Of a DNA stretch of 64,000 nt, positions 4,834 through 59,849 are shown piece after piece. The notes under the pieces were generated by a model, which searched no databases, was not told the origin of the DNA, and worked only from the letters and a program-made list of their open reading frames with translations. The DNA lies in assembly GCA_963969345.1 (NCBI GenBank), contig OZ017767.1, forward strand, positions 11,538,471 to 11,602,470, given 5' to 3'. The position numbers were made by a program, and so were the translations under genes. Source of the stretch: Turbatrix aceti (taxonomy: Eukaryota; Nematoda; Chromadorea; Rhabditida; Panagrolaimidae). The first letter of the stretch is position 1. Every line of letters starts with the position of its first letter.

Positions 4834-6154
4834 ATGACTTCCCTCAGTAACCTCTTCTTGGCATGCAGTCTAGTAGCCAGTCTGGCATTCTTCTGCCAAG
4901 CGCGGCCCAATAACTTGTTATGTTAGTTTGTTGGAATAAAAAAATTTTAAATTCTAATAAAATAAAAAAAATAAAAAATTTTTTTTCAGACGATCCCGAA
5001 ATCAAACGTGAATTCGACCGCGAATTTCTATCTTTTGGCAAACGGGGAGCTGTTGCCATCTACGAACCAGTAGAGCTCGTCGACAAGCGTGCCGATGATG
5101 TAAGTTTAACAACATGCGTTAAAATCTGTTATGTTCTCCAAAAAATTCTTGGAATGAAAACGTTAAAAAATTCTAACACTAACAGAAAACACAAATATTA
5201 GCGTTAGATTTTTTTTAGCGCGCTCATGCTTTTTTCTTGGCAGTAATATCTTATGCAAGAATTTTTTTATGTTTAATCACGAACACTTTTAATTCACGTG
5301 ATCATTGCTTTATTAAAAAAATTAACAGTGGAAAAATATGCGGTGTTCAAAATTGTTCTTTTCTCTCATCGGTGGTATCACTGGTTTCTGAAAAATTGCA
5401 TAATTTAGTAAAAAAACTGTTCTATAGTTTTTAGAACCCTTTGCATTTGTGTTTTGATCGTTCAACAATTTTTGACACTTAAAGCAAAACACTAAAATTT
5501 ACGGAAGCACACGTTTTAAAATTCGTCATCTCAGATTTTTGCATTGTCTGGAATAGTGTTCCGGGCAATTTGTGTTGTAATAAGTTCCAACTCGAAAAGT
5601 TATTTATGTCTTCTTCGTAGTCTAAAAAACTTTACGCCACAACGGGTTGCTATGGCTATAAACGAATTTATTATTTTCAGTATTCTTAAAAGGAAGAAGG
5701 CTTTTTGCGTGGTTTTGAAACCACGCAAAGCTGTTAGGAATTCATATTTCTTTGGCATGAATTACTAGCCAAAAAAATTACGATTACGTTTTTTTTGGGG
5801 GCAAAAAAATTCTAATCGGGCCATGAATAATTTTATTTTTTCCTACTAAGTCACAATTTTTTACAGGAAGTCTTCGACCGAACGTTCATGTCGTTCGGCA
5901 AGCGATCACCCCTTGGTCTCGACAAGAAGGACTTTGACAGAGAATTCATGTCTTTTGGCAAGCGATCGGCGAGCCCGATGGACAAGAAGGACTTCGACCG
6001 GGAGTTCATGTCTTTTGGCAAACGATCGTCAGGCGCGATGGACAAGAAAGACTTTGAGAGAGAATTCATGTCGTTTGGCAAGCGATCTAAGCTCGTGCTC
6101 GACAAGAAGGATTTCGAGAGAGAATTTATGCACTTTGGCAAGCGTGGCATGTGA
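4834..6154 (+). CDS. Neuropeptide precursor with six MSFG/LSFG/MHFG-amide peptides (nlp-13-like)
   Basis: Three exons (4834-4921, 4990-5099, 5867-6154) join with consistent phases to encode 161 residues. The start MTSLSNLFLACSLVASLAFF is a signal peptide. An acceptor (TTTTTTAG, exon from 4788) lies just upstream of the ATG and may be a trans-splice or 5'UTR splice site. Six repeats end in FGKR, so each would be cut at the dibasic site and amidated through Gly: EFDREFLSFG, EVFDRTFMSFG, DFDREFMSFG twice, DFEREFMSFG and DFEREFMHFG. The last four follow a DKK spacer, itself a dibasic site. The DRxxMSFG-amide ending is closest, from memory, to C. elegans NLP-13; NLP-1 and NLP-7 also end in MSFG. 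Intron 2 is long (767 bp). The product is expected to be secreted from neurons through dense-core vesicles. The neuropeptide call is strong; the choice of subfamily is inference. Confidence 0.9.
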
Positions 6155-28255: not shown

Positions 28256-31200
28256 ATGGGTGCACCTCACTGTGTGTTGCTTTTCGTGGCATCACTCATC
28301 AGTCAGGCTTACGGTATGTTTTTTGTTAAACAAAATTTTAAAAATTGTTTTGATAAATTAATAGCCACTGAATGTACATTAGTGAGCCTAAATTTAGAAA
28401 ATATTTGTCACTTTTTTTAAAAAAGTGTTTTTAAAATCAATTTTACGTTTTTTAGGCTGTCAACCAACGTCCCCCTACTACGGTCGGTCATCAAATTACT
28501 ACGCCCCTCAACAATCCTATCAACCGGCTTACCAGTACTCATACAATCCGTCATCGGTGGCCGTTGCACCCCTTCAGCCACCCCCGCAATACCCGACGCT
28601 GGATGCGTCACCTCCGCTCGATCCCCCTGCCGATCCCTTTGTCTTGGATAACGGTCTCATGGAATCCAACATCAATGACGTGTCTTTTGACGTCGCTGGA
28701 TCGTCTAACATCCGACCCGTGCAAGCTGTTCCTCCCCTGGATGAATCTAACCACAATGCTTTTACTGAGGATAAGAAGAGTGACGTAGCTGAGCTGAATA
28801 ACGATGTCCTGGATGACTCATGTTCAAGAATGGGCGCGGAAAGTTTGACTTCTCTACTGGAATGTATCGACGCTAATCCGTACTTCACAAATGGCGTTCA
28901 AGCCAGACTCGGAGGACATAAATGCGATTTTGAACCGGAATTTGTCTGCAGGTAAATTATATTTACAAAAAAAATATAAAATTACTTTTAAAAATTCAGA
29001 TTTTACACATCTCCGCGGGAAACGCTCAAATTCCAAACCGGTGATTTCCACGGCCATGGTAGTCCAATCCTCGAGGAATCCTTCAATCTGCTGGTTAATC
29101 GTTCGGGCGGCATCATGCCTGATCATGGCTTTATTTTCGTCGAAGCGCGCAATGCTCTGGAACCTAACGTCACAGCCGTTCTGCGTGCAGATGTTGAATG
29201 CCAAACTGGGGATGGGACGTTGTCATTTGATTACTGGGCTACAAATCCAAATATCATGCTTAAAGTCTGCACGAGAACCTTGAAAGAACATAGCTGCACA
29301 GAAGTGAGTTCAAATTTTTTGGAAGCATCACAACGAGGACACAACGTTAAATATTAATTGAAATATTGGCATTTTGTTCCTAACTTTAAATATGATTCTT
29401 GGTCACGTTTTGAAATTTTTTGATCATCATTTCTGTTTTACAAAAAAATTACAAGTATTTTAGAACATAAGCTACGACACCGAAGCCTCTCGCGTCGAAA
29501 TCGACGTCATCAAGCCCGCAGAAAATCCTTTTGTCGTTGAAATTGTGGTTTCAAACTTTGCGGAGCCATCTGCCTTTTTCCTTGATTCTCTTGAATACGA
29601 AGCCAATTCCTGTGCTTCATCTGCAGGAGCAGTTCCTCTGCCAACCACAACTACGTTCCCTCTTGCACGTCAACTGGTCCACGGCGCACAGCTTCTGCCC
29701 CAGACATACCCCATCGAGCCATCTTTAAACCATCTACAGCACCGCCCGGGCTTCGGACACTCCAACGGCTACGCACGATGTGCCCATGGTCTCGACTGGA
29801 AAACAGTTTTTGGTGTGTTTTTTTTGAATTTCGCATATTTCTCGTTTTAATATTGTTGATGTGAAAGTGCCACGAGGCATTATCGATGACGGGGAATTCG
29901 ATAGAGATATCAAAAAATCAATAATCAATCGATAATATGCAAATTTTTTTTCTAACTCCGGAATTCTCAAGCAGATTTCAAAACAAAATAGTAGACCGTG
30001 TTCTACGTCCCAAAAAACCTCTGTATGCAAAAAACTGGAATTTTCTGTGCATCAAAAAAAAAGTTATTTCAAATTGATTAAAAACATGACTACTGATACG
30101 ATATCAACGGCGCGCGAAATCACGTGTTATGCTAGCAAACGTGTGATTTGGACTTTTTTAGCACTGATCTACAATACTATTACAAAAAAGAACTACAAAA
30201 CAGACAAATTATCAAAGTTGTTTTTTGTCCATCCAAGAGATAAACTTGAAAACTGTGTAGTTTATCTACCATGAGTTTAGGCCCATTTTAATTATTTTTC
30301 GTAGTTCTTTTTTGTAATAGTATTGTAGATCAGTGCTAAAAAAGTCCAAATCACACGTTTGCTAGCATAACACGTGATTTCGCGCGCCGTTGATATCGTA
30401 TCAGTAGTCATGTTTTTAATCAATTTGAAATAACTTTTTTTTTGATGCACAGAAAATTCCAGTTTTTTGCATACAGAGGTTTTTTGGGACGTAGAACACG
30501 GTCTACTATTTTGTTTTGAAATCTGCTTGAGAATTCCGGAGTTAGAAAAAAAATTTGCATATTATCGATTGATTATTGATTTTTTGATATCTCTATCGAA
30601 TTCCCCGTCATCGATAATGCCTCGTGGCACTTTCACATCAACAATATTAAAACGAGAAATATGCGAAATTCAAAAAAAACACACCAAAAACTGTTTTCCA
30701 GTCGAGACCATGGGCACATCGTGCTACGTTACACCACCCTCACCCCATGGAGGCCTTTCGAGAATCAACATTCAGCCCTTCACAAGACCGGCTAACTTTG
30801 TACCTTCCCGGGTTCAAAATAACGCAACACCCGAGCCGCCAAAGAATCAAGAAGGACTTGCGCACCACAGCGACGGCATTGATTTTGTTCGGGCAGGATA
30901 CAAAGTCAACAACAAGGCTAACGAGCGGGTGTCGCAGAAAAGTGCTGACGTTGAAATTAAAAAGAAAAGACTTGGAATTGCAAAACTCCAGGAATGCGCG
31001 CCTCTGGATTGTGATTTTGAAAACGGACTTTGCAAGTACACCTTTACGATCATCAAGAACAGCAATGTGAGGTGAGAACATTTTTTCCCTTTTGTTTGAA
31101 CGTGTGAAAAAATAAGCATGAACAGAAGAAAAAGAAATCCTGTTCTATGTGTTTTTCTAACGAAAGTTTATGAAGCATAGTTTAAAATGTTCTGTGACGC

Positions 31201-31717
31201 AAGTGAAGTGCAAAATGGCAATTGACCTATTTTCAACAGCAAAAAAATGTTTTTTGTGGGAATCAAACAAAAAACTAACATTTTTTATTTTTTTAGATAC
31301 GGTAAATGGCAACTTTCCCGCTCACTTCTCGCGTCTCCCACGAATAAATCGGCGGGTCATGGCTCTTTCGCATTTGTTGGCATGGACAAGAAATCTCCAC
31401 AACAGGCAAAAGGTCGAACAGTCTACATTCTGGAATCCCCGCTCTTCAACCTCGATGCACCTGCCAAGCTTACGTTTGACGTTTATCGTCGATCCAATGC
31501 CATTGACTTGCAGGTGTGCATCGACTCATTAACAAATTGTCCTTACGAAAGCCCACCCATTCGTGGCAAAGCTGACTGGCGACACGGTGAATCCGTCATT
31601 CTGCCAGCGACTACGAGGAAGATATTCTTCATTGCTACGCAATGGAAAAAGTTCAAGTGGCTTGCCATCGATAATGTTAAACTTCATTCCGCAAGTGGTT
31701 GCTCAAGTGTTGTGTAA
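28256..31717 (+). pseudogene. Secreted two-MAM-domain protein gene, exon 4 interrupted by a palindromic transposon
   Basis: Exons: 28256-28313, 28456-28951, 29000-29303, 29464-29772 plus 30728-31071 (one ancestral exon), and 31297-31717. Removing the insertion and one TAC duplicate restores a continuous frame of 643 residues. MGAPHCVLLFVASLISQAYG is a signal peptide. A Tyr/Pro-rich segment follows, then a first MAM-like domain (CDFEPEFVCRF, LSFDYWATNPN, LKVCTR), a low-complexity linker, and a second MAM domain (CDFENGLCKY, LTFDVYRRSNAIDLQVC, WLAIDNVKL). MAM domains are extracellular adhesion modules, so a cuticle, matrix or cell-surface role is inferred. Without splicing, the insertion adds a stop about 25 codons in. 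Splicing it with internal signals would instead add 22 in-frame residues, so 'pseudogene' is provisional: the gene may still be functional. A TTTTTAG acceptor lies just upstream of the start (exon from 28242). Confidence 0.85.
29773..30724. mobile_element. 952-bp palindromic DNA transposon inserted in the MAM gene
   Basis: The arms 29773-30196 and 30301-30724 mirror each other base by base (424 bp each, coordinates sum to 60497) around a 104-bp loop. Termini read GCACGATGTGCCCATGGT and its complement. A 3-bp target duplication, TAC, flanks it (29770-29772 and 30725-30727). It encodes no recognisable transposase, so it is non-autonomous. Near its ends are TTTTTG/GTGTGT and CTGTTTTCCAG, a potential donor and acceptor in matching phase. 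The terminal sequence links it to the 845-bp elements at 48.9, 49.8 and 59.9 kb. Superfamily is unresolved; a 3-bp duplication is compatible with PIF/Harbinger or CMC. Confidence 0.9.
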
Positions 31718-38143: not shown

Positions 38144-41100
38144 TAACAACAACTGAACTGTAAACTCAAACTCAAACTCGAACAGAATGGTCAGTCGAAG
38201 ACTGACCTTTTATAAACACACAAGACCAAACCAGAAAGGGAAAGAACCATCTAGGTAATCGTGTATTCAAATTTGAAGACGAGATAAGGCAGCTTTCCCA
38301 CTCGACACAACGCCTAACAAGCTCGGAGAGGGTGTAAACGGTCGAGCGAATAGAGCTCGCGTTCGGCAGGACGACGCGACACTAGAGTCGCAACGGTTTT
38401 CTTCAGAAAAACCTATTTACGACACGCTCGTCAATCATTTTGTACAACGTGTTTCATACAGAATGGCGCCATTCCCCGGGAGATTAAAAACGGAGGATTA
38501 TCCCCGGGAATCTCTGGGGATGTCCCCGGCGATATCCCCCGGTCACCCAGTAGACATACTCCACTACCTTAGTTTGAAACTTTAAAAAAGATTGATTGAA
38601 CCGTGATCAACGCAAACAACCATTATCAATGAATTCTTTTATCAATGCACGTAGGTTTTTTTTCTTATTATTAAGAGCCACTCTGCGAGCAGATTTATTT
38701 CCGACTACACAGGCATTTTACACTTTCCGATGTTTTGTGCCAAAGTTGTAGGCACCTATAGGGAGGTTCCAAATTTCCATACCAAAATTTTTTTAGATGC
38801 CGGATTCTGGAGTTTCGGCTTCTGCAATTTTTGACGTCAAATTTTCAAACTGTTTCAAAAATTCTGATTTTTGGTATACAGGGGTATCTTGGCACGAGAA
38901 ATCGACTGGTGTATTTAGTTTTCTCAAAAAACATCTGACTTTTTTGAAAAAATGTGATTTCTGGTTTTTCCGCCCGTTTTTGTCCGTTGCTTGGCTCCAG
39001 CATCCGTATATTACCCGGCGAAGTGGTTTTCGCAGGCTAATCTTGTAGCTTGGTTTCTGCTCTATCGGGAAAAGTGAAAGAAAAAATATGTTAGCTTCAT
39101 CAATTTTTGTTTTGAATTTTTTTATAGCGCCAACTCGATCAAAAACAAGCGAAAAAAGAGAGATTACGCGTGCGAAACGCATGCGCTGCAGCACGGCGCG
39201 CGCTCGCACGTTGCGCGCACACAAAGCGGGGAAGATCTGTGCGCTTTTTCAACCATTTTAGATCGAGTTGGCGTCATAAAAAAATTCGAAACGAAAATTG
39301 ATGGAGCTAATATATTTTTTCTTTCACTTTTCCCGATAGAGCAGAAACCAAGCTACAAGATTCGCCTGCGAAAACCACTTCGCCGGGTAATATACGGATG
39401 CTGGAGCCAAGCAACGGACAAAAACGGGCGGAAAAACCAGAAATCACATTTTTTCAAAAAAGTCAGATGTTTTTTGAGAAAACTAAATACACCAGTAGAT
39501 TTCTCGTGCAAAGATACCTCTGTTTACCAAAAATCAGAATTTTTGAAACGGTTTGAAAATTTGACGTCAAAAATTGCAGAAGCCGAAACTCCAGAATCCG
39601 GCATCTAAAAAAATTTTGGTATGGAAATTTGGAACCTCCCTATAGGTGCCTACAACTTTGGCACAAAACATCGGAAAGTGTAAAATACCTGTGTAGCGCC
39701 CTCCACCTTATAAATAAATCGGCTCGCAGAGTACCTCTTAAATCTTACGAGTACTAAAATTGTTTCAAAAAAGTGTCACGGAAGCAAAAATACGCCTTTT
39801 TTTATTCTGATCTCTAAATTCCCCGGGGAATTACTTTTGGGGGGGAAATCCTCGAAGATCCCGGGGATAATACTACTCCGAGGAATCCCGGGGACATACC
39901 CTTGTGGCCACCCTGGTTTTATATACCACATAAACAATTGAATTTTTTTGCGTAATTTTGATTACATTCATAGCATAAATGAACTTTTTTGCCTCTTTTG
40001 GCTATGTGCTACATAGGCTCTTGCTTTTAAAATTTTTTACATTGCTCTGCTCTCGCTTTTCACTTTTCCAGTTTGTCTCCTCTGCTTCTGCGGGGGCGGA
40101 GGCTGGAATGAAGAGTGCTTTTTTGTCCGTAATAATAGAAGTACCTATACAACCACAGACAAAAATGTTTACCAAGCTATCGCGGCAGTTGAATATTTAT
40201 AAGAAACATCAGTATCAAAATGTATAATAAAAATAGTGTGATAATATGAGAAAGTTTAGAGTATCTTTTCTTTTACCTGTGATATTGTATCCCAGAAGAT
40301 TAAAGAAGTTAACAGGAGCAGAAGTGTGATAAACAACTAGCAGAGACAGCAGGACAAATATTATTGAGAGAATATGAAAAACCATGCTTACACGATTAAA
40401 CAGTAGAGAGTAGATGCCCGATCTTTGTATTTTTCGACCACTGCACAAAAAAAGTAGGACAATGCATATGAGCTCATTTCTTTTTATTTGTCCCATGGAC
40501 TAAAAAAATGCCCGCGTCTAACAAATTTTTAGGGCGCTTAAGAGTTCCGCTAAATTTTTAATATAAAAATTATGTTTTGGTTGAAAAATAAGATTTCAAA
40601 AATTGTTTCAATCACCAATTACAATCATACATGGTAAATTAAAACGTTCAAAGATCTTTGAAAGTTGAAAATGTCACGTACTTTTTTTAAATACGTTTTA
40701 CAAAACATTTTTATCTTATTACACGAACTTTGGCTTAACGTCACACCTTTACTGTCATGGTTTTTGTTTTTTTCATTTTTGTTCAAAATTGTAGGAAAAA
40801 CATTTGTCGACGATGTATGACTTTGAATAGTAGGTTAATGAAGATATGCAACCCTATTTAAAAGGGACATTTTCTAAGAAACGTAATTTAAAAAAGAAAA
40901 CGCAGAATTGTATAAATCAAAAAATACAATCAAAACCGTTTGCCTATTTTCAACTGCGCGTGACACCATGCTTCTCGAATTCGCTCGAGTTTATTACCTT
41001 GTTATTTTTTGCTTTTCCATGACGGTTAATGGTACGTTACTCTATCTCATCAAGAGGCATACACCACAGAACATGCGGGAGTACAGTAAGCTGATGATAG

Positions 41101-41810
41101 TAGCCACTGTTTTCGACATTATTGCAAACATGATGTATACTTTTGTACAAATGGTTTGTCTTAAAAATTACAATAAGTATTTTACCGTGTTTGATAGGAG
41201 TTGGACGTTATCGGAGGAATTTATTACTCCAGATGCGGAGGATTCTGGAACCATTACATTCCCAAATCGCTTCGATGTACCAGCGCTGGGCTTTATTCTT
41301 TTGCGTACGAATTAGCGATTATCGCATTGCCCCTGCAATGCTTTAGTCGGTACCTGTTTATTAACAGGTTTGCATGTTGTTTGTCAATATTTACAAAATT
41401 AAAATTCTTTTACAGAAAAAAATCGAACAGCTGGTCACTAATTGTCGCGGCTTATACAATACCCGTTATCATATTTGGAGCAGCGGACTTGTACCTAATA
41501 ATTGGTATGGCACCTGTGGAAGACAACCAATCTGCTCTTGAGAACCTCTATCGTCTTGAACTTTGGAAAATACAGTCCGATGCGAAAACTACTTTTTGTT
41601 ACATTCCAATCGTATGAATTTTTTGAGCATAATAAAAATAGCTAACCAATGTTTTTAGAACAATTCTAATGTTCCTTTACTTACTGGTACAATGACTATA
41701 ATGTCCATCATTTTTCTTGCAATTACTTTTTGGTCAATGAATAAAGTTCATTTGACATTAAAAAGCCTCAAAACTCAAATGGTTACTAAGCATTATGAAA
41801 TAGAATCTCA
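38144..41810 (+). repeat. Left arm of an 8.2-kb palindrome
   Basis: Every sampled position x in 38144-41810 is complementary to 84446-x in 42636-46302, including intron sequence and homopolymer lengths (a T8 run at 38656 and a G7 run at 39839 are matched exactly). The arm is 3,667 bp and contains a CCCCGGGG-rich block, a foldback element and a 3'-truncated receptor copy. Inner boundary: tagaatctca is shared, then the sequences diverge. Outer boundary: taacaacaactg is shared, then they diverge. Confidence 0.92.
38671..39740. mobile_element. Foldback element inside the left palindrome arm
   Basis: The sequence from ttaagagccactctgcgagc at 38671 is repeated inverted, ending at 39740. The core arms (38705 to about 39150 and about 39255 to 39696) include CTACACAGGCATTTTACACT and gatgccggattctggag with their complements, plus a 15-bp indel near the right end. 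The frames inside are arm-derived and mirror each other. It is non-autonomous, with no transposase visible. Confidence 0.8.
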
Positions 41811-41883
41811 TGCTGATAAATATAATTCAAAAATCAGAAAAAATGTTATCCGTAAAAGGGTATTTATAAAAAAATATGTCTGA
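40968..41883 (+). pseudogene. Truncated mirror copy of chemoreceptor B
   Basis: Exons 1-3 (40968-41153, 41198-41367, 41416-41611) and most of exon 4 (41659-41810) match receptor B on the minus strand. At 41810 the palindrome arm ends in the middle of exon 4. The frame then runs into unrelated sequence (HADKYNSKIRKNVIRKRVF) and stops at 41883. The last helices and the NPLITIYC motif are missing, so no functional receptor is expected. Because the arms look identical, this copy has not decayed, which implies a very recent event or an assembly artefact. Confidence 0.85.
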
Positions 41884-42328
41884 GAATCCACAGTGTTTAT
41901 TTACGAAAAAACGTTTATGCCGCTACTGAAAATAAGTATCTATTAAGTTTTTACATACCTCATTAACAGAGCTTTTGTTTTTCAACCATTAAGTAACCAA
42001 CAATCTGACAACGTACAACCCAACGATTTTACAGAACTAAACATAAGATTGTCTGCAAGCTGTATAATTTGATATAAACATTGCTTAATCGAATGTTTGC
42101 TTGCTTTACCAAAACAGAGACCGCACTATGTTATAAAAATACATGTCACAACGGAGAATACAGTATGCAGTATATTATAATCGATTAGTCATTGTCTGAT
42201 ATTTTGTTAATATTCGCAAAGTACACTTTCTTGACAATTTTATAAGTTTCTTAATTTATAAGTTTCTTAATTCGAATTATTTATAAGTTTCTTTAACTCA
42301 AAAAGATCGAAAACGTTACATTTGTTTA
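41811..42328. other. Part of the palindrome spacer without a gene
   Basis: This is AT-rich sequence between the truncated left copy and the 3' end of receptor B, and so contains the probable 3'UTR of B. A short direct repeat, tttataagtttctt, occurs at about 42239, 42255 and 42282. No frame is supported. Confidence 0.6.
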
Positions 42329-43478
42329 TTAATGTACTGTAGAATTAATACTAGACGTGACGGTAAATTGGCGTTTGGTGCGAAAGCGCCACAGTGCACG
42401 CCGATATGTTCGAATACAATAAATCGTAATCAGAGGATTAAGCACAGTGTTGAGTACAAAAGGTAAGCACAACATGATAAACCAGCCACCGTAGTATTCG
42501 CCGAGGACGTAAACGCTGATGCACGCTGTTATGGCAAGTAACGCTGAACAAATTGGCAAGAACGTCTAAAACATTTGAAATAATATTACATCACACCGAA
42601 AGACTCCTGCCTGATAAAATAAACGAATGCCAAGCTGAGATTCTATTTCATAATGCTTAGTAACCATTTGAGTTTTGAGGCTTTTTAATGTCAAATGAAC
42701 TTTATTCATTGACCAAAAAGTAATTGCAAGAAAAATGATGGACATTATAGTCATTGTACCAGTAAGTAAAGGAACATTAGAATTGTTCTAAAAACATTGG
42801 TTAGCTATTTTTATTATGCTCAAAAAATTCATACGATTGGAATGTAACAAAAAGTAGTTTTCGCATCGGACTGTATTTTCCAAAGTTCAAGACGATAGAG
42901 GTTCTCAAGAGCAGATTGGTTGTCTTCCACAGGTGCCATACCAATTATTAGGTACAAGTCCGCTGCTCCAAATATGATAACGGGTATTGTATAAGCCGCG
43001 ACAATTAGTGACCAGCTGTTCGATTTTTTTCTGTAAAAGAATTTTAATTTTGTAAATATTGACAAACAACATGCAAACCTGTTAATAAACAGGTACCGAC
43101 TAAAGCATTGCAGGGGCAATGCGATAATCGCTAATTCGTACGCAAAAGAATAAAGCCCAGCGCTGGTACATCGAAGCGATTTGGGAATGTAATGGTTCCA
43201 GAATCCTCCGCATCTGGAGTAATAAATTCCTCCGATAACGTCCAACTCCTATCAAACACGGTAAAATACTTATTGTAATTTTTAAGACAAACCATTTGTA
43301 CAAAAGTATACATCATGTTTGCAATAATGTCGAAAACAGTGGCTACTATCATCAGCTTACTGTACTCCCGCATGTTCTGTGGTGTATGCCTCTTGATGAG
43401 ATAGAGTAACGTACCATTAACCGTCATGGAAAAGCAAAAAATAACAAGGTAATAAACTCGAGCGAATTCGAGAAGCAT
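42329..43478 (-). CDS. Seven-transmembrane chemoreceptor B (Srd/Str-type), with a GC-AG intron
   Basis: Five exons (43293-43478, 43079-43248, 42835-43030, 42611-42787, 42329-42565) encode 321 residues. Exon lengths equal those of receptor A. Features include MLLEFARVYYLVIFCFSMTV as TM1, NGTLLYLIKRHTPQNMREYS, LPLQCFSRY, FWSMNKVHLTL, LLAITACISVYVLGEYYGGW and LNPLITIYCIRTYRRALW. It is a sensory GPCR by family. Exons 1-3 and most of exon 4 lie in the right palindrome arm; exon 5 is in the unique spacer, so this is the complete copy. The exon 4 donor reads CAG/GCAGGAGT where A and C have CAG/GTAA: a GC-AG intron or a damaged site. The frame is otherwise intact. Confidence 0.87.
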
Positions 43479-46302
43479 GGTGTCACGCGCAGTTGAAAAT
43501 AGGCAAACGGTTTTGATTGTATTTTTTGATTTATACAATTCTGCGTTTTCTTTTTTAAATTACGTTTCTTAGAAAATGTCCCTTTTAAATAGGGTTGCAT
43601 ATCTTCATTAACCTACTATTCAAAGTCATACATCGTCGACAAATGTTTTTCCTACAATTTTGAACAAAAATGAAAAAAACAAAAACCATGACAGTAAAGG
43701 TGTGACGTTAAGCCAAAGTTCGTGTAATAAGATAAAAATGTTTTGTAAAACGTATTTAAAAAAAGTACGTGACATTTTCAACTTTCAAAGATCTTTGAAC
43801 GTTTTAATTTACCATGTATGATTGTAATTGGTGATTGAAACAATTTTTGAAATCTTATTTTTCAACCAAAACATAATTTTTATATTAAAAATTTAGCGGA
43901 ACTCTTAAGCGCCCTAAAAATTTGTTAGACGCGGGCATTTTTTTAGTCCATGGGACAAATAAAAAGAAATGAGCTCATATGCATTGTCCTACTTTTTTTG
44001 TGCAGTGGTCGAAAAATACAAAGATCGGGCATCTACTCTCTACTGTTTAATCGTGTAAGCATGGTTTTTCATATTCTCTCAATAATATTTGTCCTGCTGT
44101 CTCTGCTAGTTGTTTATCACACTTCTGCTCCTGTTAACTTCTTTAATCTTCTGGGATACAATATCACAGGTAAAAGAAAAGATACTCTAAACTTTCTCAT
44201 ATTATCACACTATTTTTATTATACATTTTGATACTGATGTTTCTTATAAATATTCAACTGCCGCGATAGCTTGGTAAACATTTTTGTCTGTGGTTGTATA
44301 GGTACTTCTATTATTACGGACAAAAAAGCACTCTTCATTCCAGCCTCCGCCCCCGCAGAAGCAGAGGAGACAAACTGGAAAAGTGAAAAGCGAGAGCAGA
44401 GCAATGTAAAAAATTTTAAAAGCAAGAGCCTATGTAGCACATAGCCAAAAGAGGCAAAAAAGTTCATTTATGCTATGAATGTAATCAAAATTACGCAAAA
44501 AAATTCAATTGTTTATGTGGTATATAAAACCAGGGTGGCCACAAGGGTATGTCCCCGGGATTCCTCGGAGTAGTATTATCCCCGGGATCTTCGAGGATTT
44601 CCCCCCCAAAAGTAATTCCCCGGGGAATTTAGAGATCAGAATAAAAAAAGGCGTATTTTTGCTTCCGTGACACTTTTTTGAAACAATTTTAGTACTCGTA
44701 AGATTTAAGAGGTACTCTGCGAGCCGATTTATTTATAAGGTGGAGGGCGCTACACAGGTATTTTACACTTTCCGATGTTTTGTGCCAAAGTTGTAGGCAC
44801 CTATAGGGAGGTTCCAAATTTCCATACCAAAATTTTTTTAGATGCCGGATTCTGGAGTTTCGGCTTCTGCAATTTTTGACGTCAAATTTTCAAACCGTTT
44901 CAAAAATTCTGATTTTTGGTAAACAGAGGTATCTTTGCACGAGAAATCTACTGGTGTATTTAGTTTTCTCAAAAAACATCTGACTTTTTTGAAAAAATGT
45001 GATTTCTGGTTTTTCCGCCCGTTTTTGTCCGTTGCTTGGCTCCAGCATCCGTATATTACCCGGCGAAGTGGTTTTCGCAGGCGAATCTTGTAGCTTGGTT
45101 TCTGCTCTATCGGGAAAAGTGAAAGAAAAAATATATTAGCTCCATCAATTTTCGTTTCGAATTTTTTTATGACGCCAACTCGATCTAAAATGGTTGAAAA
45201 AGCGCACAGATCTTCCCCGCTTTGTGTGCGCGCAACGTGCGAGCGCGCGCCGTGCTGCAGCGCATGCGTTTCGCACGCGTAATCTCTCTTTTTTCGCTTG
45301 TTTTTGATCGAGTTGGCGCTATAAAAAAATTCAAAACAAAAATTGATGAAGCTAACATATTTTTTCTTTCACTTTTCCCGATAGAGCAGAAACCAAGCTA
45401 CAAGATTAGCCTGCGAAAACCACTTCGCCGGGTAATATACGGATGCTGGAGCCAAGCAACGGACAAAAACGGGCGGAAAAACCAGAAATCACATTTTTTC
45501 AAAAAAGTCAGATGTTTTTTGAGAAAACTAAATACACCAGTCGATTTCTCGTGCCAAGATACCCCTGTATACCAAAAATCAGAATTTTTGAAACAGTTTG
45601 AAAATTTGACGTCAAAAATTGCAGAAGCCGAAACTCCAGAATCCGGCATCTAAAAAAATTTTGGTATGGAAATTTGGAACCTCCCTATAGGTGCCTACAA
45701 CTTTGGCACAAAACATCGGAAAGTGTAAAATGCCTGTGTAGTCGGAAATAAATCTGCTCGCAGAGTGGCTCTTAATAATAAGAAAAAAAACCTACGTGCA
45801 TTGATAAAAGAATTCATTGATAATGGTTGTTTGCGTTGATCACGGTTCAATCAATCTTTTTTAAAGTTTCAAACTAAGGTAGTGGAGTATGTCTACTGGG
45901 TGACCGGGGGATATCGCCGGGGACATCCCCAGAGATTCCCGGGGATAATCCTCCGTTTTTAATCTCCCGGGGAATGGCGCCATTCTGTATGAAACACGTT
46001 GTACAAAATGATTGACGAGCGTGTCGTAAATAGGTTTTTCTGAAGAAAACCGTTGCGACTCTAGTGTCGCGTCGTCCTGCCGAACGCGAGCTCTATTCGC
46101 TCGACCGTTTACACCCTCTCCGAGCTTGTTAGGCGTTGTGTCGAGTGGGAAAGCTGCCTTATCTCGTCTTCAAATTTGAATACACGATTACCTAGATGGT
46201 TCTTTCCCTTTCTGGTTTGGTCTTGTGTGTTTATAAAAGGTCAGTCTTCGACTGACCATTCTGTTCGAGTTTGAGTTTGAGTTTACAGTTCAGTTGTTGT
46301 TA
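42636..46302 (-). repeat. Right arm of the 8.2-kb palindrome
   Basis: Reverse complement of 38144-41810. It carries exons 1 to 4 of the intact receptor B, the mirrored foldback element (44706-45775) and the CCCCGGGG-rich block. Its outer end, at 46302, falls exactly where the fragment of receptor C exon 1 begins. Confidence 0.92.
44706..45775. mobile_element. Foldback element inside the right palindrome arm
   Basis: Mirror image of the element at 38671-39740, with identical sampled sequence. It was evidently duplicated with the arm rather than inserted independently. Confidence 0.8.
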
Positions 46303-48633: not shown

Positions 48634-49806
48634 TCAATTTATGACATTCTAAAATTTTTTTTGTAATAAAATAGGGATTGAAGTTCACCATCAGATAGTG
48701 CCGGCAAGTTGCGGCAACGCGCGTAGCAACCGATCAACCGACACAAGCCAAACCATTCTTCAGTTGATCAGGTCAGTCAATCAAAAAACGATGCAAACCC
48801 TTCTTTTATTTTCGGGCGAAAAAACGGCGTTTTAGTAGAGGTGGTAGCATTTATTTGCCATCAGTGGAAAATCAACTGCTCGGAGAAGCGGTTTTGGTGC
48901 GGCCAGTGTTGGCTGCCACGACGCACTATGCGCCCATGGTTTTGACACGAAAACTTTTTTTTTGCTATTTTCACATGCACAGAGTAGATATATTTCGGAC
49001 ATAAAGATGGTTCTGGGGGTAATCGGTTACGGCCGATTTAATGGTGCCATCAAAAAATCAAAATTCGATCGATAAATCGATAATTTGAGGTAAAAATTAC
49101 TGTAACTCACGAAATTATTAGCCGATATCACAATAAATTATTGCATCGTGTTCTACGTCCTTGAAAACCCCCGGAAGCAAAAAACAAAAAAATTCTGTTC
49201 ATGAAATAAGAATTTATTTCGAATTAAAAATTAATAGTAATAATTAATTTTCACGGTTCAAAATTAATATTTTTTTACCGGGCAAAGTTCATTGCAAAGT
49301 TCAAGATGAACTTGATCACTATGCCAAAGTTCATATATAAGAATGGTTAACCGGCTTGGCACGAAGCTTCCGAAGGCAACACACTACGCGCATTTGCATG
49401 CGCGCACTGTGTTCTCCTTCGACTGAAATGCTTCAGCGCGCACTTTTTGTATGAAAAAAAATTTGGAATTGAAATTATTTTTTATTTCATGCACCGAATT
49501 TGCTCATTTTTTCCACACCGGGGTTTTCGATACCGCTGATTACGATAAGCTAATTTATTGTGATTTTCGCTAATAAAGACAAAAAATACAATTTTGTTTT
49601 GCTATTTATTGAACGAATATAAAATTTTTGATAGCACCGTTAAATCCGCCATCATCGATAACCCCCAAAACACTACTTGTTTCTAACATTTAGACACATT
49701 AGATATGTAAAATTCTAAAAAATACGTCAGAAAACGTTTTCGTGTCAGAACCATGGGCGCATAGTGCGACGCACGAAAGAGAGACTTTTTGTTTGCCCCT
49801 TACTTG
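48634..49806 (+). repeat. Repeat E, copy 1, interrupted by a palindromic element
   Basis: Starting at tcaatttatgacattctaaa, the sequence matches the inverted copy ending at 61077, including tagggattgaagttcacc, a GGCGTTTTAGTAGAGGTGGT stretch and GCGGCCAGTGTTGGCTGCCA. It is split at 48920 by an 845-bp element. The portion aaaacggcgttttagt...gttggctgccacgacgcacg recurs at 50690-50810. Confidence 0.75.
48923..49767. mobile_element. 845-bp palindromic element, copy 1
   Basis: The ends read GCACTATGCGCCCATGGT and its complement, with a GAC target duplication at 48920-48922 and 49768-49770. It has no transposase. It is nearly identical to the inverted copy at 59889-60733, and both sit inside repeat E. 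Confidence 0.85.
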
Positions 49807-50651
49807 GCACGATGGACCTATGGTCTCAACGCGAAAACTCGTTTTTTGCCGTTTTCATATGCATAGAGTAGATATTTTTTAGGTGTAAAGACGGATCTGG
49901 GGGTTATCGGCTACGGCAAATTTAATGGCACTATCAAAAAATCAATATTAGATCGATAAATTGATAATTTGAGAAAAAAATTACTGTAGCTCAAAAAATA
50001 ACTATACGATATCAGAATAAAATAGTAGACCGTATTCTACGCCATCAAAAACCCTTGATGGCAAAAAACAGGAAAAATCTCCCCATGAAATAAGAAGTTA
50101 TTTCAAATCTTAAAATAAATATTAATAAATTATTTCCACAGGTCAAAATTAATATTTTTTTACCGGGCAAAGTTCGTTGCAAAGATCAAGATGAACTTAA
50201 TCACAATGCCAAAGTTCGTATATAAGAATGGGAAACCGGCTTGGCAGTAAGCTTCCAAAGGCAACACGCTACGCGCATTTGCATGCGCGCACTGTGTTCT
50301 CTTTCGACTGAAATGCTTCAGCGCGCGTTTTTTGTATAAAAAAAACTTTAGAATTGAAATAACTTCTTATTTCATGGGGAGAATCTTCCTGTTTTTGGCA
50401 CCCGGGGGTTTTCGAGGGCGTAGAATACGGTCTACTATTTTATTCTGATATCGTATAGTTATTTTTCGAAATAAATTTATTAAATCGAGTTTATCGATCG
50501 ATTATTGAATTTCTGATATCCCCGATAGATTCGCCATCGCAAAAAACTCTTAATCCACTCTTGAAATCTAAAAAACACTCACTTTTGCGATAAAAAACGT
50601 CAAAAAAGCCTCAAAAATCCCTTTCGCGTTGAGACCATAGGTCCATCGTGC
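49807..50651. mobile_element. 845-bp palindromic element, copy 2 (variant ends)
   Basis: Ends read GCACGATGGACCTATGGT and complement, with a TTG target duplication (49804-49806 and 50652-50654). It has the same length as copies 1 and 3 and a related interior, including a shared central motif gaatggnaaaccggcttggca, but is clearly diverged. It is non-coding. Confidence 0.85.
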
Positions 50652-50860
50652 TTGGTCAGTCAGTCGAAAAATCCTTCTTTTATTTTCCGGCGAAAAAACG
50701 GCGTTTTAGTATGAGTGGTAGCATTTATTTGCCACAAGTGAAAAATCAACTGATCGGAGAAGCGGTTTTGGTGCGGCCAGTGTTGGCTGCCACGACGCAC
50801 GAAAGATAGGCTTTTCGTGCGCGCTAAAGATGACGCGAGAGAGTTCTGAAGGCTTTTCGA
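50652..50860 (+). repeat. Repeat E, partial third copy
   Basis: ggtcagtcagtcgaaaaatc through gttggctgccacgacgcacg parallels copy 1 at 48768-48926 with scattered substitutions, followed by cttttcgtgcgcgctaaag, which also occurs at the end of the 61-kb copy. Confidence 0.65.
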
Positions 50861-50954
50861 TCTCAAAACAATAAACGTTTTTTTCAATAAATTGAATATT
50901 GTATTGTAAAATTCACAACAACATATAGCATAACCAGAGTTGTTCAATTCGACA

Positions 50955-51055
50955 ATTTTCAGTGCTCGCTCTGCTCATGCTCTTTGAGTTCATAAAATTT
51001 TCGCGCTCGCTCCGCTCGCGCTCGTGAGCTGAGCAGGAGCAATTTGGTGAGCATC
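50955..51055. repeat. Second GAGC/GCTC repeat block
   Basis: Short units such as gctcgctctgctcatgctc and cgctcgctccgctcgcgctc, followed by complementary gagctgagcagga, resemble the block at 37705-38045. It directly abuts the 3' end of the PI4K2 gene. Confidence 0.6.
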
Positions 51056-51093
51056 AAACAACTCTGAGCATAACTTCATTTTTCGTTAAAAAT

Positions 51094-52721
51094 TCAACAA
51101 CAAACAGGATTACTGTAATCAGCGAGTTTAAATTTGCACCACTGCTCCCATTCGGCATCTGTGGATGGAGCGCGGAGGTACCTGCGACTGGCGACGAGTG
51201 GTTCTCGCCCCACCCAGTCAGAAGGGGTATCGTTGGCAGCGAGAGCGCATCGTAGGTTGTACAACTGCCCGCGGAAGACCCGCAGCTGGTTCTTGGTGAG
51301 AAGAGAGTTGTGAGTTTTGTCGTGCCGAAAGAGGACGTAAACATCGGCCGTGAGGGCGTGGACAAATGCAGGCGTCAGGAGGGCAAGCCATTGCTCGCGG
51401 AGAGCCGGATCGACGGGATGCTTTGCGATTGAGAGTTCAGCCCAGTGGAATCGGAATTTTCGAAACCGTGACGCGCATTCGGGGTGCTTGACGGGAAAAG
51501 CGAGGCCGTTGTCGATGGCTGCTATCTTTACTGGCTCTCCTTCGACGTAGCTTAATAAAAAAATTTTTATAACTTAAAACTTCAAAATTTAAAGAAAAAT
51601 TTTTTTTTTACAAAACATTAATTTTTTTTATAAAATTTTTTAGGCCAAAAAAAATTTTTAAAAAACGCAACACACCGAATAAGCCAATTATCCAAATGGC
51701 GATCAGTATTTCGAATAGCGTAATCCAAAAAGCATAGTTTTTGAAATTGAACCAAAATTTCTTGTTTTTCATTTTCCGGCAGTTGATCAAATTTCGCCTC
51801 AATGACTGGCCACATCTCCGTGGCGCTGTTGTATCCGTGAACAAAGAGTTGAAAACTACCCGTCTTGGGTTTGATTTCGTTCTTTCGCATGCAACCGCTG
51901 CCGTAGAAAAAGTTCGAAGACTTCAAACTGACAACTCGAGTTTTTGGAACAATTCCGAGCTGAAAAGTAAATACAATTTTTTTTGTTATTTTGTGGAATC
52001 AAATTTCGCGTATAATGGAACAAACCTTGAAACGATCATCGAAAAGACTGGCAGCGGTCTCGGAGAGATAACCATGATTGGGGATGAGACATGCCCGACC
52101 GAAGCAGCAAAAGCAGAGCATGCGCTGGAAGTACTTTGCCCATTTGGGGTTGAGTGGGGCAAAGGGTTCCTCGTCCTTGGGCTTAAAAACGCCGATGGCG
52201 CGATGGTCGACGTCATAGACAAAGTACGATCCGGAGCTTCCGCTGGGTATTAGTTCTGGGTGTACGTTTGAGGTGATCGCATCGTTCGTCTTGGTCATGA
52301 CTTCGACAAAATCCTTGTCCACGCTCGTGGATTGCTAAAAAATGCACACTTTTTCCAAAAGTTTTTTAAAAAAGTTTCTCAAAGAACTCACAGATTTCGT
52401 ACCAACGATGTAAGCAGTGAGTTCACGGCTGGAGCCCTCGGAAGCATCGTCTGACAAATCTGACTACAAAAAAAAATATTCCAAAGTTAAAGGAACCAAA
52501 CAAACTTTGTTAGTGCTGTCTGTGACGGCGGAGGGCGGTGGTTTGATTCCTTTGGCTTCGGACGAGGGGGGTTTGGTTTCCTTGACTTCCGACGAAGGGG
52601 GTAGTTTCTCGTTTTCCTTGATTTGCTTGTCCAAGGTCTTTTCCTTGAGAGAAGCTGCAGCAATGGCACTCGCATTACCCGGATTGTGCTTTGATCGTTG
52701 GTACTTTCTGGACGACGGCAT
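51094..52721 (-). CDS. Phosphatidylinositol 4-kinase type II
   Basis: Five exons (52506-52721, 52392-52463, 52026-52334, 51676-51959, 51094-51550) give 445 residues. A charged, low-complexity N-terminus precedes the kinase domain. Marks of PI4K2 are SGSYFVYD (glycine loop), AIGVFKPKDEEPFA with the lysine, the cysteine patch MLCFCCFGRACLIP (equivalent to the palmitoylated CCPCC of animal enzymes), KTGSFQLFVHGY, LDYAIRNTDRHLDNWLIR (catalytic loop) and VKIAAIDNGLAFPVKHP (the DNG replacing DFG). The enzyme makes PtdIns4P on Golgi and endosomal membranes. The last acceptor is weak (TTATTAAG) but is supported by the restored frame. The protein ends in NPVCC, an unusual double-cysteine tail that could be lipidated. 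The DNA immediately downstream is GAGC repeat. Confidence 0.93.
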
Positions 52722-53298
52722 CGATACGGTAAATAATTAACAAAAAAAAAGTCAATCAAACGGGCTACGTTCGCTGAAAAAAGTATCACTTATTCCACCG
52801 CCATTGAACAAAAAAGTAACAAAAATCGATAATAAAAATTCAACGCACCTCAAATACGCGTATAAGAAAAGAAACCGTAATCGTTGGAAAAAATAAAAAT
52901 TAGTGTTAGTATACAAGTTTACCGATAGGAGACGTCTACTCGTCCCGTCGTGGATGGAGACAACAGAAAAATAGGCCAATAACAGCCTGAACGAAATGTT
53001 CCGTTTCTGAATGAAAAGAAGTAAAGCCGAAATATAGTACTAAACTAGCATGACTAGTTTTGGTTGACACGAGAGAGCTCAACAAAGAAAATAAAAACAA
53101 TCTGCATAAACTGTAAAAAATAAAAGGAAAAATAAACAAAAGGCATTGAAAAAACGTTACTCGGAGACAAAAAGAAAAAAAACCGTAACGTTACATTATT
53201 TCTTTATCTGAATTGTTTAGAAGTAATATTATCCTAGTAAAATGAAAAAAATACTGCTAATCACTCGAATTTAATTTTTTTTAGAAATAAAAAGTATC

Positions 53299-53352
53299 GC
53301 TTCCGGGTGACTGAACGTAATTGGCACTTCCTGCTGACATGGCACGGTCCGG
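53299..53352 (-). pseudogene. Degenerate fragment resembling the chk-1 5' coding exon
   Basis: The minus strand encodes [17 protein letters not shown], which parallels [20 protein letters not shown] of the kinase gene 1.2 kb away. At DNA level, CAGCAGGAAGT and ACGTTCAGTCA are shared, with an internal deletion and substitutions. The surrounding open frame (53271-53459) has no start, kinase motif or partners. It is on the opposite strand, so an inverted partial duplication that has decayed is the simplest reading. Confidence 0.5.
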
Positions 53353-53900
53353 TACATAGGCCGGACAAAAGAAAATATATTTTCAGAACGCACCTCAGAA
53401 GTGTTGTGCAATTTGTTGCGCTCGGATCTGTCAACGCAGACATAGAAGCTATTCGTCATTGTTTACTAAATATGAAAAATGCTATTGATTTCTTTCTTGG
53501 CTAGCAAACAAAGGTAATTTCAAGTAAAACTTAGGTATACAGCAAAGACTGTACAAAAAATGTATAATAGCATTATATCCGGCGCAGTGATAGACAAAAT
53601 TTGACTATCACTCAAATGAAAAAATACGTAAAGCTGTTGAATTGTGTAACTCAACAAAAAAAAAAACCGTAATTTGAGACTTTGATTGTCTTTTACGGTT
53701 GTTTTTTGTGTTTTTCAAATGTCGTTTATTTTGTTTACCATGTCCTAAATAGAGCTCGACCGTATAAAATCATAGCAAGCAATTCAAGCACAAAAAAAAA
53801 AGTAACAGAGCTTTGAAATTGAAATTTGACCCCAAAAATTAGCAAAAAAAACTGTCTCGAACTCAACAAACCCTCATTTCGCCCGTCGTTTTCACCCAAC

Positions 53901-54155
53901 ATGCAGCTTTTCGCCTTGCTTCTCATCCTGCTTATGGCCAGCATCCGAATTTGTTCCGCCGTCAACCTCAACGCCAGCACGTCAACACCAATCCTGGGCT
54001 CGGATAGGCTCGCGCATCCAAAACCTCACGAACACACGATCCTAAGCTTCAAAAAGCTCAGGCCTCACATCTCACGCGCCAGTTTCCGAATCAAGCCTCC
54101 TACTATCGGCTATCGGCTATTTGAAAAAGCACAAAAATTAACTAAAACTAATTAG
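53901..54155 (+). CDS. Small secreted basic peptide of unknown family
   Basis: A single exon of 84 residues. MQLFALLLILLMASIRICSA is a convincing signal peptide. The roughly 64-residue mature part has no cysteine, is rich in Lys, Arg and His (HPKPHEHT, FKKLRPHISRASFRIKPP) and ends KAQKLTKTN. It has single basic residues but no KR-type amidation cassette, so it is not an obvious neuropeptide precursor. A linear cationic antimicrobial or a secreted signalling peptide is possible but only inferred. An in-frame ATG 25 codons upstream would bury the leader and is less likely. An AATAAA signal follows at 54179. Confidence 0.6.
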   Translation: MQLFALLLILLMASIRICSAVNLNASTSTPILGSDRLAHPKPHEHTILSFKKLRPHISRASFRIKPPTIGYRLFEKAQKLTKTN

Positions 54156-54375
54156 TAAATGTATTATTGACTCGAAAGAAATAAATGGACGGTGTAAAGA
54201 AGAAAAAACAAGATGGTTATATTTTTTTCCTTTTGTAAACCGAGTTTGTGATTTCGATGGTTCCTGGCACGAAAAAATGCGCACATTGCTTTCCCGCGCT
54301 TTTTCAACTTTTACTCTAGCTTTTCTTTTTTGAGTGGCACTAAACTTGTTGTTCGTTTGTTTATTTGTCGTACCA

Positions 54376-56636
54376 ATGGATGTCATGGAAGTAATTCCGG
54401 AGGAAGCAGAATACGAGAACGAGAATGAGAACGAGCCTGTTGTCATGGGTCCACCGTCGCAGCGGAAGATCATCCGAGCTACGTCGAGAAAAGTGCGATC
54501 TAATCCTGACGTGCATCCCGAAAACTCCGCTCTCACATCCGCTCCACGAACCGTTCCATCGCTGCTGACGCAGCAGGAAGTACCGATCACGTTCAGTCAG
54601 TTAGAAACAGTTCGTGTTCTTGGAGAAGGTAAGTGGGATGGTTACGTTTTTTGAGTTTGCTGTTTTTGAACGTAAACCTCAATCGATTTTTTTACGATAG
54701 GTCTTATTTTTGTGTTTTTTTCAGGAGCTTTCGGTGAAGTGGTCCTCGTCGTGGATCGCAATGACCAAAACATCGCCGCAGCAGTCAAGAGAATCGAACT
54801 CAAAGGCGTGCCGGAAGATACGATCAAGATCGTCCGCAAGGAGGCCCTTATCCAGCGGGCTCTCACAAATCATCCCAACGTTCTCCGGTATATCAGCATG
54901 CGTGTAGTTAATAACGAAGTATTTGAGTTGTTCTTGGAGTATGCTGACGGGGGCGAGCTTTTTGATCAGATTGGTAAGATTATACATCTTTTTCTTTGCA
55001 TGATTTATGCTTACATTTTACTTTTTTTTTCAGAGCCAGACCACGGAATGCAGCCAATGCGAGCTCAGTTTTACTTCCGGCAACTCATCGACGGCATCGA
55101 GTACATTCACACCAACGGAATCTGTCATCGAGATATCAAGCCTGAAAATTTGCTCATTACCAAAAAGCGTAGGTTTTTTATGGCCAAATGCAATTACTAT
55201 CGATTATTTTTCAGATGTTCTCAAAATTAGCGATTTTGGTATGGCTACGGTTTTCCAGCACAAGAATAAGGAACGCCTGTTGTCGACTCGTTGCGGCACC
55301 CTGCCCTATGCCGCTCCGGAAATTATTCGTGGTCCTTATCAGTGAGTTTTTTTTGGCAAAATACTGACAAAATTACGATCACATTTTTGAGCCTGATTTT
55401 GCGAAGAAAAAAAGTACAATTTTTCTGCAGATTGCGTTTTAGGCCTAAAAGTAACGTATTGTTTTATTTCCGTTTAAGAGTATCATTTTTTTGCAAAGTA
55501 TCAAATTTCATTCTTTGTTGCCTATTTTTTTATGAATTCTTTTCAGCGCCACACCAGTCGATGTTTGGTCCTGCGGCGTTGTCCTGGTCACCGTCCTCGT
55601 CGGCGAACTTCCCTGGGAGGGGGCGACCGAAGACTGCATCCAATTCACCGATTTCGCCCGCAAGAACGACAACTCCCACCGTCCATGGTGCCGATTCGAC
55701 ACGACCGAGCTCTCTATCGTCCGGATGATGCTCTGCGAGGACGTCTCCAAGCGCGCTACCATTGCCCGTGTCCGTAACCATCCTTGGTTCACCGAGAACC
55801 TCAGTCACCAGAACAGCCGCCAGCGTCCCATTCCGGAGAACACATGGCCTGTCAACGGTTCCGTCAGGAGCAATCGTCTGGATGGCCTTGTGCCGTCATC
55901 ACAGCCGGCGGGCATGTACTCACTCAAAAATCGGGATTCTGTGTAGTGAGTTTCTCGGGGAGGGGGTTTTTTGGGGATTGGGGGTCTTTTTTTTTTAGTT
56001 TGATGCATACTGATCGTCCGCGGCAGGCTTTGCCGAATGCTTCTTTTTCACAGCCTGTTACGGTTGATTTGTTGTCGAAGTCTCAGCTTGGGTCATCCCA
56101 AGCGTCGTACGCCGTAAGTTTTTCTATATAATGATTTTTTTTTGCGAGTCCCGATGTCTGTCCAGCATCCGTGCTCGACGCTGGTCCGCCGCATGACCCG
56201 TTTCTGCGTCGTCGTCTCTGTCTACGAAGCCCTCCAGGCCGTCGAAAACGCAGCAAGGGTCTGCGACTGCGAAATTCGTCTCTACACCGCTCACTGTCTT
56301 CACATCACGTCTCTGAAAAACCCGGAGCTTGCGTTCGTCGCTACCGTCTACGAGATGATCTACGACGGCTCGAAGGTCCTTGTCGACTTCCGGCGCTCTA
56401 AGGGCGATGGCATCGAGTTCAAGAGGATGTTTATGGAGTTCAAGAAACTTCTTGCAAACATCATCTGCAAGGACAGCATTCTCTGGCTCGAGAAGCAGGG
56501 TCTTCTCGCGCAGCAGCCAACCGAAGACGAGATTTCTCAGAGTCAGGTCGGACAGAGTCAGCCGTTGATTCCGGCGCCGGAGGCCCTCCATCCTCAGACG
56601 CAGAGTGAATCTCTGAATTTTGGCAGCTTTCAGTGA
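54376..56636 (+). CDS. chk-1: Checkpoint serine/threonine kinase CHK1
   Basis: Seven exons (54376-54628, 54725-54973, 55034-55168, 55215-55341, 55547-55945, 55999-56113, 56166-56636) encode 582 residues. An acidic N-terminal extension of about 75 residues precedes the kinase domain, longer than in vertebrate CHK1. Catalytic marks are [20 protein letters not shown] (ATP lysine), [35 protein letters not shown] and [20 protein letters not shown]. After a serine-rich linker containing SQ sites (likely ATR targets), the C-terminal part carries a KA1-like regulatory region ([40 protein letters not shown]). It acts in the nucleus in the DNA-damage and replication checkpoint. The tail is SQ-rich ([10 protein letters not shown]). 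All junctions hold phase; exon 6 uses TA/GTGAGT, avoiding a stop. Confidence 0.94.
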
Positions 56637-59471: not shown

Positions 59472-59849
59472 TCCAGTTACATTCCGTTTCCAAATACTTA
59501 TTTTTTCCAGCTTTTAATTTCCATAAAAAATATATTTTCAAGCACTTTTTTCTTGCCAAATGCAATATTTTTTGAGTTAACAAGGTTCATTTTGAAAATA
59601 AAATAAATCTGAAAAGCATGTTTTTAGTTTTTGCTTCCCGGACTCTGACATGTTACATTTATTTTCAGTCTACAGAATATTGTTACAGTGCCAGTCAGAG
59701 ATAATCAAACATCCATTTGTCATTCAAAAATTGCCGTTAATGGTTAGAAATGTATAGGGTTTATTCACCATATCATTAAGTAATTTTTGTAGAGCAAATT
59801 GGAGGTTTAGTGACATATGCCAAATTTTGTAAATAAAAAAATTAGTACT
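59472..59849. other. Intergenic, 3' flank of the CAP gene
   Basis: Contains AATAAAATAAA (59599) as a likely polyadenylation signal and AT-rich DNA. No frame is supported. Confidence 0.55.

Follow-up and report, generated by a model that had tools for sequence, protein, structure and literature searches.

The window analysed here, a stretch of 64,000 nt (C2:11538471-11602470) from a 59.9-Mb, 28-contig genome, contains a five-exon MAM gene whose fourth exon is split by a palindromic element (Table 1). When the flanks of the element are joined to give an empty site, the gene has an open coding sequence of 1932 nt (643 codons) with GT..AG at all four introns. The MAM domain (PF00629) is divided by the last intron and lies 3' of the insertion site; its match to the 643-residue model (E 4.6e-06, 27.0 bits against a cut-off of 26.4) is barely over the curated cut-off. 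No protein neighbours of this model were found at E ≤ 0.001 among 7447 candidates, and no PDB relatives of its C-terminal 165 residues at E ≤ 1. Proteins encoded nearby include an Srg chemoreceptor and perhaps a spectrin repeat of the Dys-1 type (E 0.0041, under its cut-off), which point to a nematode. Further along the window, a protein-kinase gene lies at 54600-56240, with PF00069 matches in two exons.

Table 1 Features of the MAM gene, the inserted element and related elements in the window
Feature	Position in window	Strand	Basis or remark
MAM-gene exon 1	28256-28313	+	deduced by frame
MAM-gene exon 2	28456-28951	+	deduced by frame
MAM-gene exon 3	29000-29303	+	deduced by frame
MAM-gene exon 4, split by element	29464-31071	+	deduced by frame
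Target-site duplication CTACG, left	29769-29773	+	comparison with other copies
Inverted repeat, left arm (first base belongs to the duplication)	29773-30200	+	arm comparison
Palindromic element, 950 bp, subfamily A, ends CACGATG...CATCGTG	29774-30723	.	comparison with other copies
Candidate donor TTG/GTGTGT	29813-29818	+	score 6.92, rank 1 of 53 GT in element
Inverted repeat, right arm (last base belongs to the duplication)	30297-30724	-	arm comparison
Candidate acceptor TGTTTTCCAG/T	30692-30701	+	score 9.77, rank 1 of 39 AG in element
Target-site duplication CTACG, right	30724-30728	+	comparison with other copies
MAM domain PF00629, divided by last intron	31010-31690	+	residues 484-635; window coordinates by arithmetic
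MAM-gene exon 5	31297-31717	+	deduced by frame
Subfamily C element (CACTATG ends), duplication CGACG	48924-49766	.	
Subfamily D element (CACGATGGACC ends), duplication CTTGG	49808-50650	.	
Second subfamily C element, inverted, same 843 bp as the first, duplication CGACG	59890-60732	.	

The two arms of the element are 428 nt each, 100% complementary and separated by 96 nt. The first-pass annotation had proposed an inverted-repeat insertion that breaks exon 4 of a MAM gene; the perfect arms confirm the insertion, and the gene assignment is borne out with a domain match near its limit. The borders had been placed at a TAC duplication around an element of 952 bp, and these had to be revised, with other copies setting the ends at a 5-bp duplication (CTACG) around 950 bp; the total inserted is 955 bp under either placement. 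Removal of the element and one copy of the duplication opens exon 4 again, and unspliced read-through runs 25 codons into the element before reaching a stop, so that both the restored frame and the stop after about 25 codons were correctly anticipated. The insertion site lies upstream of the MAM domain, and by arithmetic the read-through product has ~414 residues and lacks that domain. Skipping of exon 4 would cause a frameshift (by arithmetic, its 653 nt with the insert taken out leave a remainder of 2 on division by 3). In RNA, the arms are predicted to form a perfect stem of 428 bp, with a minimum free energy of -767 kcal/mol, whereas 20 shuffles average -201. Scans of the window with Rfam (gathering threshold) and for tRNAs gave no match.

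In an alignment of subfamily A arms (429 columns), the left arm of the window copy differs at 4 and 1 positions from the two arms of one other copy, L031, and at 5 to 14 positions from the other six A arms. Because the arms differ so little from those of L031, the element in exon 4 is young and recently inserted. An assembly artefact is ruled out by the clean duplication and by the close relatives elsewhere in the genome.

A query of the whole genome with the left arm gave at least 64 matches (40 of 102 candidates scored). Near-identical copies make up subfamily A (CACGATGTGCCC), and copies at ~75% make up subfamily B (CACGATGGAGTC), which is palindromic like A and has the same usual size of ~950 bp. 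Eleven copies with both ends (four A and seven B) were taken as the A/B set, and one-ended copies, such as L032, L035, L037, L038, L042, L047, L049, and L074, were left out of the counts. A pattern search for element ends, with 78 listed, returned A plus two further subfamilies, C (CACTATG) and D (CACGATGGACC), from which eight copies, picked where two facing ends were close, were read at both ends. The end heptamer is CACGATG in A, B, and D and CACTATG in C, with some single ends mutated (e.g., in L035, L043, and L089).

Duplications of exactly 5 bp flank seven of the 11 A/B copies (CTACG, CGGCA, CGTCG, CGTCG, CCAAG, TGACG, and TGGTG) and six of the eight C/D copies (CGTCG, CAGAG, CGATG, CTTGG, CGACG, and CGACG). 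The A/B exceptions are L033 with 6 bp, L045, where a G run makes the duplication ambiguous, and L043 and L046 with none; among C/D, L083/L084 has one mismatch in its duplication and L089/L090 lies within longer inverted flanks. Pooled over all subfamilies, 13 of 19 copies have an exact 5-bp duplication, two a longer one (L033 and L045), and four are without. Ten of the 13 exact duplications follow the pattern CNNNG. Two of the 13, the CGACG duplications of the identical and inverted C copies in the window, may represent one duplicated event.

These two C elements bracket ~10 kb that includes the kinase gene, and their flanks (48652-48926 versus 60786-61060) are also inverted, at 97%. A reading of 48924-60732 as a single 11.8-kb element was rejected, because both ends are full 843-bp elements, each flanked by a CGACG duplication of its own, and because the genes in between, which encode the kinase (PF00069) and also a CAP protein (PF00188), are host-like. 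A composite-looking locus, L093 (G000:C1:387740-393985), has identical inverted 754-nt arms of small C-type elements around 4.7 kb. It was dismissed as an autonomous partner, as it consists of two inverted small elements around that interval with no transposase seen. At G000:C1:9843238-9864915, element ends recur 12 times on one strand with a period of 1968 bp, apparently a tandem array that includes a transposon end. The inner end motif GTCTCGACTGGAAAAC also occurs alone, as a match of 16 to 34 bp near base 1501 of L053, L064, and L068, and is commoner in this stand-alone form than the ~0.03 chance hits estimated for a 16-mer in 60 Mb.

The Transib superfamily is thought to have given rise to RAG1 and antibody-gene recombination. 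In passages of the published accounts, Transib and RAG-like transposons have ends that start with CAC and duplications of 5 bp (PMC7204232); for the Drosophila elements, 5-bp duplications are recorded at 532 of 533 sites of hopper, which has a GC-rich target, and at seven of seven sites of transib2, and the target motifs CCANTGG and CABHG are given (PMC3276498). The elements described here resemble hopper and transib2 in their CAC start, with RSS heptamer-like ends (CACGATG and CACTATG), in their 5-bp duplications, in a GC-rich C...G target, and in an A-rich block inside the end. The exon 4 element differs from both in that the arms are perfect over 428 bp, the interior is almost absent, the termini have splice-like sites, and no transposase was found. 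Because the CAC ends and 5-bp duplications match the published Transib features, we infer that the element is probably a non-autonomous member of this superfamily, and we consider its mobilisation in trans by a Transib-type transposase to be likely. Matches to the RAG1 family PF12940 numbered zero in the genome, but also zero in 14 control genomes. The ORF lists for the interiors of L033, L045, and L093 contained no obvious transposase, with seven interior frames lacking a Pfam match, and the list for the L047 interior gave the same result.

The ends of CACTA/EnSpm and Chapaev elements also start with CAC, and their duplications are 2 to 3 bp and 4 bp, respectively. Membership in one of these or in another superfamily of the same structure would agree with the CACTA start of the subfamily C ends and with the lack of a transposase match in the searches above. 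It is nonetheless very improbable, as A and B start with CACGA and, among the 19 copies, 13 have a duplication of exactly 5 bp and not one has a duplication of 2 to 4 bp. For the 2-3 bp of CACTA/EnSpm, the count of zero in 19 includes L043 and L046, which were judged by eye.

Candidate splice sites were scored with a model of ten window introns deduced by frame, four from the MAM gene and six from the kinase gene. This model replaced a self-trained intron finder run on fetched loci, which yielded no usable consensus and gave low scores to the MAM gene's own donors. The highest-ranking donor and acceptor of the element are each in the top 1.8% of the window's GT or AG, and by arithmetic their sum of 16.7 is above the leave-one-out sums of six of the ten model introns. 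The predicted junction, 29812/30702, takes out 889 nt and leaves 66 bases, or 22 in-frame codons with no stop. This residue comprises 39 + 22 element bases and the 5-bp duplication, and it has no stop trinucleotide in any phase. On recomputation, the coordinates first put forward, with a donor at 29813, an acceptor ending at 30701, and 66 extra bases in frame, proved right. Since the arms are perfect mirror images, the sites and the residue are identical in either orientation. The earlier argument on orientation and frame is correct, and stronger than first put: in simulated insertions along the MAM-gene coding sequence, the frame is open at 1771 of 1912 positions in both orientations if the element is spliced, and at none if it is unspliced.

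The splice model is built on few introns, and the ranks it assigns are not stable. Trained on the four MAM-gene introns only, it places the donor second among 53 GT and the acceptor sixth among 39 AG; trained on the kinase introns only, it places both first, and bootstrapping puts both sites first in 253 of 500 replicates. An open frame is also not special by itself, because the element holds 1038 GT..AG pairs, of which 383 are in frame, and 23 open in-frame paths including 29812/30702. What is special about this junction is the quality and the position of its sites. When other 950-mers were placed at the insertion site and the best open in-frame path was taken, a score of at least 16.7 was reached, out of 400 sequences per control, by none of the dinucleotide shuffles, one of the mirrored shuffles, and one of the genomic 950-mers; if the frame is not demanded, such scores are not rare (88, 97, and 111 per 400 in the same three controls). 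An earlier control, in which both sites had to equal or exceed the candidates, gave 0 of 500 in two sets and 0 of ~500 in a third, and was superseded by the fairer summed score. Of a further 3000 mirrored shuffles, 15 had their top donor within the first 60 bases and their top acceptor within the last 60; four of these were in frame, and none was also free of stops in all phases.

All four complete A copies, when placed at the insertion site, have the same best open path, with a lower score in L034 (15.14; slightly weaker acceptor). The top donor and acceptor are located at the ends in the window copy, L031, and L034, and near-end sites rank 2 to 4 in the 3.3-kb L033. Six of the B copies are ~949 bp long; their best near-end donor has a rank of 4 to 8, and their acceptor one of 2 to 3. 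At the insertion site these copies also give an open in-frame path, with the donor at base 52 and a residue plus duplication of 78 bases. The score of this path is 9.4 (8.1 in one L044 orientation) as compared to 16.7 for the element in exon 4, and one phase of the residue is closed by its single stop trinucleotide. For L045, the longer B copy, the score is 9.4 or -4.3, depending on orientation. No comparable splice pair was found in the three C/D copies of the window, where the best score is 6.2. The strong splice pair belongs to A; B has a weaker version, and C and D hardly any.

With flanks joined, the frame over the site extends for 218 codons in the window copy, 146 in L033, 119 in L031, and at most 108 in the others (59 in L041, which has the duplication TGACG). 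Clear interruption of an exon is limited to the window copy, one of 11 complete A/B copies. Splice sites carried at the ends, one hallmark of introners, are present in silico in the window copy, L031, and L034, and the other hallmark, many copies as introns in coding sequence, is absent at one in 11. By this evidence the family are not (yet) introners. The first-pass annotation had described an introner-like element and had pointed to the other genomic copies as a check; the A copies do keep the predicted path, and an introner reading for the whole family is so far not supported, with one of 11 copies clearly exonic, a weaker pair in B, and none comparable in C/D.

The reading we favour, with a probability of roughly 0.48, is that a young, non-autonomous Transib-type palindrome lies in exon 4 and that the pre-mRNA is probably spliced in part at 29812/30702. 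The insertion itself, with its ends, 5-bp duplication, relatives, reading frame, and splice-site quality, is established by the sequence. Transcripts left unspliced would end 25 codons into the element and yield the shortened product without a MAM domain. Others would probably be spliced, at least partly, with 29812 joined to 30702; the donor is 39 bases in from one end of the element and the acceptor 22 bases in from the opposite end. In this way 889 nt would be removed and 22 in-frame codons kept, and the mirror-image arms would present the same sites and residue whichever way the element landed. We infer this partial mRNA splicing from the site scores and the frame, and regard it as plausible, at about even odds. 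Both sites are base-paired in the perfect stem (29813 with 30684 and 30701 with 29796), which could block splicing. Pairing may hinder splicing, and it also puts both splice sites near each other.

A plain knock-out with hidden sites is the main rival, a possibility to which we assign clearly less than an even chance. Here a Transib-like element would simply break the gene, and its splice-like ends would be a coincidence of the terminal repeat, a transposase-binding region, concealed by the hairpin. The transcript would be truncated or destroyed, and the double-stranded RNA may supply a small-RNA pathway that silences the family. The location of both sites within a perfect stem of such low free energy is in line with concealment. 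Coincidence is suggested by the acceptor block CTGGAAAAC, which is found in a terminal region common to B, where the pair is weaker and the residue has a stop in one phase; the single clearly interrupted exon among 11 complete A/B copies also fits. A coincidence is harder to reconcile with the 3000 mirrored shuffles, none of which combined best sites at both ends with an in-frame residue free of stops in all phases. The remaining exons, open and with GT..AG introns, likewise argue against a broken gene, though a very young insertion would look alike.

Alternatively, the element could be mobile and present as a segregating or somatically excised allele, with gene function kept by worms or cells that lack it, owing to DNA excision and not to RNA splicing. 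Recent activity is suggested by the arms, which are 1 to 4 of 429 columns away from those of L031, and the MAM gene is otherwise open. We regard this reading as improbable. RAG cutting is described as leaving hairpinned flanks, whose joining adds diversity (PMC8355894); should Transib excise in a similar way, it would be unusual for the original sequence to be restored exactly. Some excision at the DNA level may take place alongside the partial splicing we favour.

A further-reaching interpretation, that subfamily A is a nascent orientation-independent introner, is unlikely on present evidence. Its basis would be the strongest donor and acceptor at Transib-derived mirror ends and a 66-base residue, counted with the duplication, that is stop-free in all phases. 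If true, A could land almost anywhere in a coding exon, in either direction, and be spliced with little harm.

Transposons acting as introns are already known. Work by Rushforth and Anderson in 1996 is said to have found Tc1 insertions removed from C. elegans pre-mRNA, and work by Giroux et al. in 1994 reportedly described maize Ds as an intron. Ds shares with the present case a DNA transposon that creates a new intron, but it is a plant hAT element and not a perfect palindrome, unlike the perfect-armed element here. Tc1 offers the parallel of a nematode DNA transposon in an exon that is spliced out with sites in or near the element. In the C. elegans dpy-19 case, Tc1 in exon 7 is removed from the pre-mRNA, likely by use of a cryptic site, and the outcome is a 49-bp deletion that shifts the frame (PMC12405876). 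By contrast, the splice predicted here is frame-neutral and orientation-independent, and the element probably belongs to another superfamily.

Introners of Aureococcus and Symbiodinium, in the account of PMC9860276, include some with duplications and inverted ends, and those of Aureococcus bring a donor as well as an acceptor with them and lengthen the transcript by 12 bp; the word nematode is absent from its main text. These are many-copy families in genes, whereas one clearly exonic copy is found here, with splicing predicted from sequence. Amoebophrya introner elements are described in sections of PMC7789003 as having inverted and direct repeats and forming hairpin introns. Repeats and hairpin structure are common to both systems, but the Amoebophrya inverted repeats are 8-20 nt at the intron ends, with mostly non-canonical splice sites (PMC7789003). 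A Transib-derived or fully palindromic, orientation-independent transposon-intron was not found in searches of open-licence literature, which was represented mostly by titles and the starts of abstracts.

The origin of animal introns is an open question, and these observations bear on the source of new introns. A study of intron gain and loss in nematodes cites introners as a case in which the origin of new introns was traced to 'dark matter' that had not been sequenced (PMC9169325). If the predicted splicing is true, frame-neutral two-way removal from RNA would be a simple, testable route from a DNA transposon to an intron-like state, and the RAG1-related Transib lineage would be linked to intron birth.

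Two other repeat structures were observed in the window. At 38144-46302 lies a very large perfect palindrome, with two 3667-nt arms that are 100% complementary and 825 nt apart, and at 5861-6144 direct repeats recur with a spacing of 60 bp and 71-84% identity to the reference copy.
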